Shown here: positions 38,467 to 40,419 of the stretch, one piece after another
How positions within the stretch are numbered: the stretch's first letter is position 1
Layout of the letters: each line of letters opens with the position of its first letter
The notes under the pieces: model-generated
The model's database searches: none
What the model was told of the DNA's origin: nothing
What the model saw: the letters and a program-made list of their open reading frames with translations, nothing else
Made by a program: the position numbers and the translations under genes
Source of the DNA: Ignavibacteriae bacterium HGW-Ignavibacteriae-2
Lineage (GTDB): Bacteria > Bacteroidota > Ignavibacteria > Ignavibacteriales > Melioribacteraceae
Assembly (NCBI GenBank): GCA_002839805.1
Contig: PGYT01000004.1
Coordinates: forward strand, 62,876 to 126,875
DNA length: 64,000 bases
Direction of reading: 5' to 3'

Positions 38467-39528
<1,062 letters not shown>

Positions 39529-39666: not shown

Positions 39667-39695
39667 TTGCTTAATGACGAATTTTTTAGTATAAA
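39667..39695 (+). promoter_or_regulatory. Sigma-70-type promoter of the CRP-family gene
   Basis: TTGCTT (39667-39672), a 17-bp spacer and TATAAA (39690-39695). The predicted start near 39702 lies inside the CRP-type site that directly follows the -10 box, leaving a leader of about 34 nt with the ribosome binding site CGGAGA. Confidence 0.6.
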
Positions 39696-39711
39696 TGTGA
39701 TGCTAATCACA
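39696..39711. promoter_or_regulatory. CRP-type operator TGTGA-N6-TCACA
   Basis: TGTGATGCTAATCACA is a perfect match to the CRP dimer consensus TGTGA-N6-TCACA. It starts one base after the -10 hexamer and covers the predicted transcription start, a position from which a bound dimer represses. The gene 25 bp downstream encodes a CRP-family protein whose recognition helix has the residues that read TGTGA, so negative autoregulation is likely. Control of divergent gapA is possible but the site is far (about 130 bp) from its start. Confidence 0.75.
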
Positions 39712-39735
39712 AATTTTTCTCAACGGAGATTACAA

Positions 39736-40419
39736 ATGACATCTTCATTGGAATCACTAATGTATGTTCCAATTTTTTCTGATTTACCTGAGGAAACGAT
39801 ACAAAAAATTTCTTCTGTCGGAATGAAAAAGAAATATGAAAAAGACAGTGTAATTTTGATGGAAGAAGATTCCGGTTCCGCAATGTTTGTTATTGCCAGC
39901 GGCAAAGTAAAAGTTGCCAGAATAAGTAATGATGGAAGAGAAGTAATTCTATCGATTTTGGGAGAATCTGATTTTTTTGGTGAGATGGCAATTTTAGACG
40001 GTTTATCACGTTCGGCCTCTGTGATTGCGATGGAAGATTCGGAATTATTTATAATTCAGCGCGATGAATTTTTAAATTTGCTTAAGTTGTATCCCGAAAT
40101 ATCTATTAACCTGCTACAAGAACTTACACAACGCCTCCGGTCGGCCGATATGAAGATTAAAGCGCTTTCACTTAAAGATGCAGAAGGTAAAGTTGCCACT
40201 GTAATTCTTCAACTTGCGGAAGATATGGGCAAAATTAGACAAGGTGTGGTTGAAATTGATAAACTGCCATTGCAACAGGATTTAGCTAATATGGCTGGCA
40301 CATCGCGTGAAACTATTTCAAGAACGTTACATTCATTTGCTAAAAAGGGATTGGTTGAGTTGGAAGGTTCCAAATTGCGAATACTGAATTTCGATAAATT
40401 TAGGGAGACATACATTTAG
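39736..40419 (+). CDS. CRP/FNR-family transcriptional regulator (CRP-like)
   Basis: Cyclic-nucleotide-binding-domain regulator, 227 residues from the ATG at 39736, chosen for its CGGAGA ribosome binding site; a TTG at 39667 is part of the promoter. The N-terminal beta-roll ends in FFGEMAILDGLSRSASVIA, where Gly82, Glu83, Arg92 and Ser93 correspond to cAMP-contacting residues of E. coli CRP. There is no cysteine at all, so it is not an FNR oxygen sensor. The C-terminal helix-turn-helix has TSRETISRTL; Arg191, Glu192 and Arg196 match the CRP residues that read TGTGA. A perfect TGTGA-N6-TCACA site covers its promoter. The PHP gene follows with no gap. Confidence 0.93.
   Translation: MTSSLESLMYVPIFSDLPEETIQKISSVGMKKKYEKDSVILMEEDSGSAMFVIASGKVKVARISNDGREVILSILGESDFFGEMAILDGLSRSASVIAMEDSELFIIQRDEFLNLLKLYPEISINLLQELTQRLRSADMKIKALSLKDAEGKVATVILQLAEDMGKIRQGVVEIDKLPLQQDLANMAGTSRETISRTLHSFAKKGLVELEGSKLRILNFDKFRETYI

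Follow-up and report, generated by a model that had tools for sequence, protein, structure and literature searches.

A conserved CRP-type operator over the crp-PHP promoter of an Ignavibacteriales genome and its probable part in negative autoregulation

Does a CRP-family gene of the uncultured Ignavibacteriales turn down its own promoter, and if so, which protein reads the site and which ligand drives it? The question arises from a 64,000-nucleotide stretch of DNA of Ignavibacteriae bacterium HGW-Ignavibacteriae-2 (contig PGYT01000004.1; the whole stretch is referred to here as the window), in which a perfect TGTGA-N6-TCACA palindrome lies against the promoter of a gene for a CRP-family protein. 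Negative autoregulation is found widely in regulators of the CRP type. An earlier reading of the letters without database searches (the sequence-only reading) had assigned the locus to the Ignavibacteria, rightly (order Ignavibacteriales, family Melioribacteraceae), and had predicted that the gene represses itself. In this study, we report a comparison of the promoter, the protein and the distribution of the site among related genomes, which indicates that the crp-PHP operon is probably under negative autoregulation through the operator at 39696-39711. Autoregulation by a CRP-type switch is common, and the locus represents no new kind of system; a limited literature search found no report of this operator.

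Promoter, operator and their conservation

The putative crp-PHP promoter was read directly on the + strand as a -35 element TTGCTT (39667..39672) and a -10 element TATAAA (39690..39695) separated by a spacer of 17 bp. The CRP-type operator TGTGATGCTAATCACA (39696..39711, + strand) abuts the -10 element and is followed by a 24-base leader, with the ATG of the regulator gene at 39736. The sequence-only reading had described this arrangement of hexamers, gapless operator and short leader correctly to the base. The palindrome is exact across TGTGAT/ATCACA, and its outer flanks are asymmetric. From the usual spacing downstream of a -10 element, transcription should start at about 39702-39704, within the operator, the centre of which is at 39703.5. 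The promoter was assigned by the sigma-70 consensus, and the organisms of this phylum may use other promoters. TTGCTT-N17-TATAAA is absent from the output of a generic promoter scan, since its second hexamer has no final T; the evidence for this candidate promoter is its conservation, T-T-G of the -35 element being retained in seven to eight of eight aligned relatives and T-A-T at positions -6 to -4 from the operator in seven of the eight.

Within the window, the operator is the sole match to TGTGA-N6-TCACA even at one mismatch, which bears out the earlier remark, made by eye, that no second copy was seen. Counts of the motif in the window and in the genome do not settle whether the match arose by chance, and its significance therefore rests on its place and its conservation.

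Of 97 relatives, 93 have an orthologue of crp, with about 47 to 84% identity, and the remaining four (G014, G035, G048 and G054) yielded distant matches only. The promoter search zone was defined as the 150 bp before the orthologue start codon. Exact TGTGA-N6-TCACA was found in 9 of 114 distinct orthologue promoters (0.02 expected from Markov-shuffled promoters) and a one-mismatch site in five further ones (0.4 expected from the same shuffling), so that conservation upstream of orthologues, proposed by the sequence-only reading as a check on its prediction, was indeed observed. The Melioribacteraceae subset (n=45 promoters) held nine exact and three one-mismatch sites, with 0.11 expected for both together. 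In the window's own clade (G000, G001, G002, G007 and G013) all five genomes carry the operator, directly 3' of the -10 element. When eight genomes were aligned at the operator, the half-sites were constant save for one base in one genome, the operator centre and the flanks varied, and the TTG and TAT promoter elements kept a constant distance.

On a tree built from the CRP and PHP proteins, the site pattern amounts to seven changes, and equal clustering arose in only 1-3 of 500 label shuffles. As judged from these comparisons, the distribution reads as that of an ancient operator repeatedly lost; separate gains are also possible. Most orthologues with this recognition helix (100 of 114) have no exact or one-mismatch site in the own promoter, and autoregulation through TGTGA-N6-TCACA is therefore not universal. 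Many crp promoters of Ignavibacteriaceae and of some other families have TTGACTTT-N15-TATATT in common (loci L026-L091), with a weak TTTGA-N6-TCAAA palindrome within the spacer. Four of 20 promoters match TTTGATN4ATCAAA with at most one mismatch, compared with 0.1 expected, two of the four coming from one genus. The signal is modest, and the palindrome may represent a relocated and weakened operator. The locus offers a case of an own-promoter operator that appears and disappears between genera with the recognition helix constant.

The regulator, its ligand pocket and the PHP gene

The proposed reader of the operator is a 227-residue regulator (39736..40419, + strand) with an N-terminal cNMP-binding domain and a C-terminal winged helix-turn-helix of the Crp type. 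Its Pfam scores, all above the cut-offs (PF00027, 88.8 bits; PF13545, 56.7; PF00325, 27.9), place it in the CRP/FNR superfamily. Against NF008732, the model for CRP proper as a cAMP-dependent global regulator, it reached 99.5 bits, below the equivalog cut-off of 266. The protein does not fit an FNR-type (Fe-S) regulator, having no cysteine in 227 residues and the half-sites being TGTGA rather than TTGAT.

Arg191, Glu192, Thr193 and Arg196 align with Arg180, Glu181, Thr182 and Arg185 of E. coli CRP and are constant across 108 orthologues. The pairing of recognition helix and TGTGA-N6-TCACA operator that marks CRP proper thus appears to be present. The window's genome encodes two other full-length CRP/FNR proteins (L284 and L285), the remaining carriers of these domains not having the full layout. 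The recognition helices of the two paralogues read SRQTVNF and ITETLSR, and because both differ, the protein encoded at the locus itself is the best fit to the operator in the genome. The match between site and reader inside one locus, on which the earlier prediction had been built, thus holds at the level of sequence, and the residue numbers then given (Arg191, Glu192, Thr193, Arg196, Gly82, Glu83, Arg92 and Ser93) were all right.

In the ligand pocket, Glu83, Arg92, Ser93 and Arg133 are constant in the 108 orthologues and Val96 is found in 104 of them, so that the phosphoribose contacts of E. coli CRP (Glu72, Arg82, Ser83 and Val86) and its Arg123 have their equivalents here. In E. coli CRP, adenine is held by the pair Thr127-Ser128. 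This place is taken by Ala137-Asp138 in the window's protein, a difference that the sequence-only reading had missed; the Thr-Ser pair of the adenine contact is likewise replaced in most of the orthologues, 103 of 108 having Ala137 and 95 of 108 Asp138. At the Ser62 place, 98 of the 108 have Ser or Thr.

One class III cyclase, with a CHASE2 domain, was detected by PF00211 in the window's genome. Among genomes of the taxonomic class, a class III cyclase was found in 147 of 151 with CRP and 75 of 142 without it (Fisher test, uncorrected for kinship). Three genomes of the window's family (G014, G035 and G048) have neither CRP nor cyclase, and two of these, G035 and G048, are incomplete assemblies. 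Because the phosphoribose contacts are kept, the CHASE2 cyclase is present, CRP and cyclase co-occur and the pocket is not filled as it is in DdrI (see below), cAMP is a plausible first candidate for the ligand. The sole cyclase found (G000:C56, L171:2208-4463) adjoins two permease-like genes of the LptF/LptG type.

Downstream, a gene for a PHP-domain phosphoesterase of 278 residues (PF02811; 40420..41256, + strand) has its ATG immediately behind the regulator's stop codon and is presumably part of the same operon, as had been proposed; the gene lies 3' of CRP in 42 of 43 loci from three families, which supports the pairing. The best NCBIfam match was the 3',5'-nucleoside bisphosphate phosphatase (177.8 bits, cut-off 400), and the RNase RNM model gave 155.8 bits (cut-off 375); since both scores are far below the cut-offs, no substrate is assigned from these models. 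A speculative reading, which we hold to be improbable, is that crp-PHP forms a sensor-and-eraser unit, in which a CRP with Ala-Asp would sense some nucleotide different from cAMP, such as a 3',5'-bisphosphate or a cyclic phosphate, and the PHP enzyme would destroy that ligand, the levels of ligand and regulator both being set by one self-limiting promoter.

How the operator may act

In the mechanism that accounts best for these observations, the CRP-family protein encoded just downstream would bind the operator at 39696-39711 as a ligand-activated dimer, with one recognition helix in each TGTGA half-site. The dimer would straddle the transcription start just past the -10 element and would thereby stop RNA polymerase from initiating; the active form would require a cyclic nucleotide, most likely cAMP. 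The locus has the hallmark of a negatively autoregulated operon, namely a conserved operator over the predicted start of its own promoter. Since the half-sites have been kept in the nearest relatives while the surrounding DNA has changed, self-repression of the gene is very probable. The prediction of self-repression thus gains support from comparative footprinting at a fixed position behind the -10 element, from the invariant recognition helix and from the finding that neither of the other full-length CRP/FNR proteins has that helix.

The operator might instead be read by another CRP/FNR paralogue, crp-PHP then being cross-regulated rather than self-regulated. The genome does encode two such full-length proteins, and genomes without a site at the crp promoter still carry many such sites elsewhere; even so, the helices SRQTVNF and ITETLSR depart from the RETxSR expected for TGTGA, and the site has been retained at the crp promoter throughout the whole clade, which makes this reading unlikely. 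A palindrome arising by chance and without function would not be surprising from the numbers by themselves, as 1.56 one-mismatch matches to TGTGA-N6-TCACA are expected in the 64-kb window, that is, one or two, and the motif shows no clear genome-wide excess. The conservation of the half-sites at a fixed position in promoters that have otherwise diverged makes this barely credible, and from the sequence comparison we conclude that the operator is not a chance match.

The other readings concern what a bound regulator would do. The divergent gap gene (glyceraldehyde-3-phosphate dehydrogenase; 38467..39525, - strand), identified by sequence and synteny, lies with pgk divergently upstream of crp in nearly all Melioribacteraceae checked, and CRP commonly controls carbon metabolism, so the operator could serve to activate or repress glycolysis through gap-pgk, its placement over the crp promoter being secondary. 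A promoter-like TTGAAT-N17-TATATT on the - strand (39602-39574), however, would place the expected gap start about 137 bp downstream of the operator, a distance outside the usual activator positions, and the operator is locked to the crp -10 element. Moreover, the gap copies of G001 and G007, both of which have the operator, are 58% and 86% identical, respectively, to the window's. Because of this distance and of the variation in gap type among relatives that all bear the site, gap is a poor alternative target and probably not the one served; control of gap-pgk as the operator's main role is very unlikely. Positive autoregulation, in which the operator would activate the crp-PHP promoter, could draw on the position of the motif near a class I site at the rlpA operon of relatives (described below), where the protein may act as an activator. 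Activation is not expected from a site over the start and downstream of the -10 element by the known class I and class II mechanisms, and we regard it as highly improbable here. Negative autoregulation remains the preferred reading.

The gap genes next to crp (loci L074-L113) fall into two types, which have about 82-91% and about 51-58% identity to the window's copy, and these types alternate among close relatives, even inside a genus, as if swapped in place. In another family of the class, two tandem copies of this CRP were observed (G367:C272:3510-5004).

Comparison with known systems and sites elsewhere

With E. coli CRP, the gene of which is autoregulated, the system shares the half-sites and spacing of TGTGA-N6-TCACA as well as the DNA-contacting and pocket residues listed above. 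It differs in overall sequence (28% identity), in the change of Thr127-Ser128 to Ala-Asp and of Gly184 to Ser, in the PHP gene downstream and in that no large regulon with this motif was seen in the genome. The best PDB match was the Crp-family structure 4ev0 (1.7e-35), which we take to be the cAMP-binding CRP of Thermus thermophilus. It belongs to another phylum but likewise has Ala-Asp at the Thr-Ser place, together with RSAS in the pocket and SRETVSR as its recognition helix.

The DdrI/SdrP proteins of Deinococcus-Thermus have the same CRP layout and have also lost the Thr-Ser motif. In DdrI, which is cAMP-independent, Arg for Ser62, Thr for Arg123 and Tyr for Ser128 fill the pocket (PMC11253593), whereas the corresponding places here are Ser/Thr/Ala, Arg and mostly Asp. 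CrpPg of Porphyromonas gingivalis, a CRP-type protein of the same phylum, binds its own promoter, as is proposed for the present regulator; it bound no cyclic nucleotide in the reported tests, and a blocked pocket is presumed for it (PMC12040651). For MalR/Flp-like CRP/FNR proteins predicted in metagenome-assembled genomes of Ignavibacteria, which belong to the same bacterial class, a regulon was predicted with the Bacteroides MalR matrix, the main text making no mention of autoregulation (PMC8510549). The present locus supplies a testable pair of operator and reader in the uncultured Ignavibacteriales, a group for which predictions of CRP-type control have relied on matrices from other bacteria (PMC8510549).

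A search for a regulon in the window's genome, with exact and one-mismatch sites, gave no clear excess over the reversed control: there were three exact TGTGA-N6-TCACA sites compared with one for the reversed pattern, and nine matches to the extended TGTGATN4ATCACA at one mismatch compared with ten for its reversal. A second exact TGTGATN4ATCACA (L003, G000:C121:30834-30849) is located 461 bp upstream of mraZ in an intergenic gap of 730 bp, and the third exact TGTGA-N6-TCACA of the genome (L001) is inside a reading frame. Two relatives of the genus had no exact extended site other than that at crp. Among the sites fetched (16 of the 30 with one mismatch), crp is the only gene to have such a site in common between the three species of the genus. 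In 57 Melioribacteraceae genomes, by contrast with this single genome, the exact extended motif occurred 40 times against 5 for the reversal; in 40 genomes of two other families the counts were 4 and 5. The suggestion of the sequence-only reading that the site defines a regulon, to be sought by scanning this genome and its relatives, thus gains no support from the genome at hand, although the motif does show enrichment in other Melioribacteraceae genera.

Of rlpA genes, the window's genome contains only a different paralogue, with no site within about 800 bp upstream. In several Melioribacteraceae genera, TGTGA-N6-TCACA is found upstream of an operon that encodes a small exported protein together with an rlpA-type lytic transglycosylase (L291 in G056, L293 in G026, L294 in G025, L168 in G045, L143 in G022 and, with one mismatch, L297 in G030). 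Apart from the regulator, the first likely target is this rlpA operon of sister genera, and in G056 and G026, where a TTGAAA-like -35 element follows about 23 bp downstream, the site stands near the position of a class I activator.
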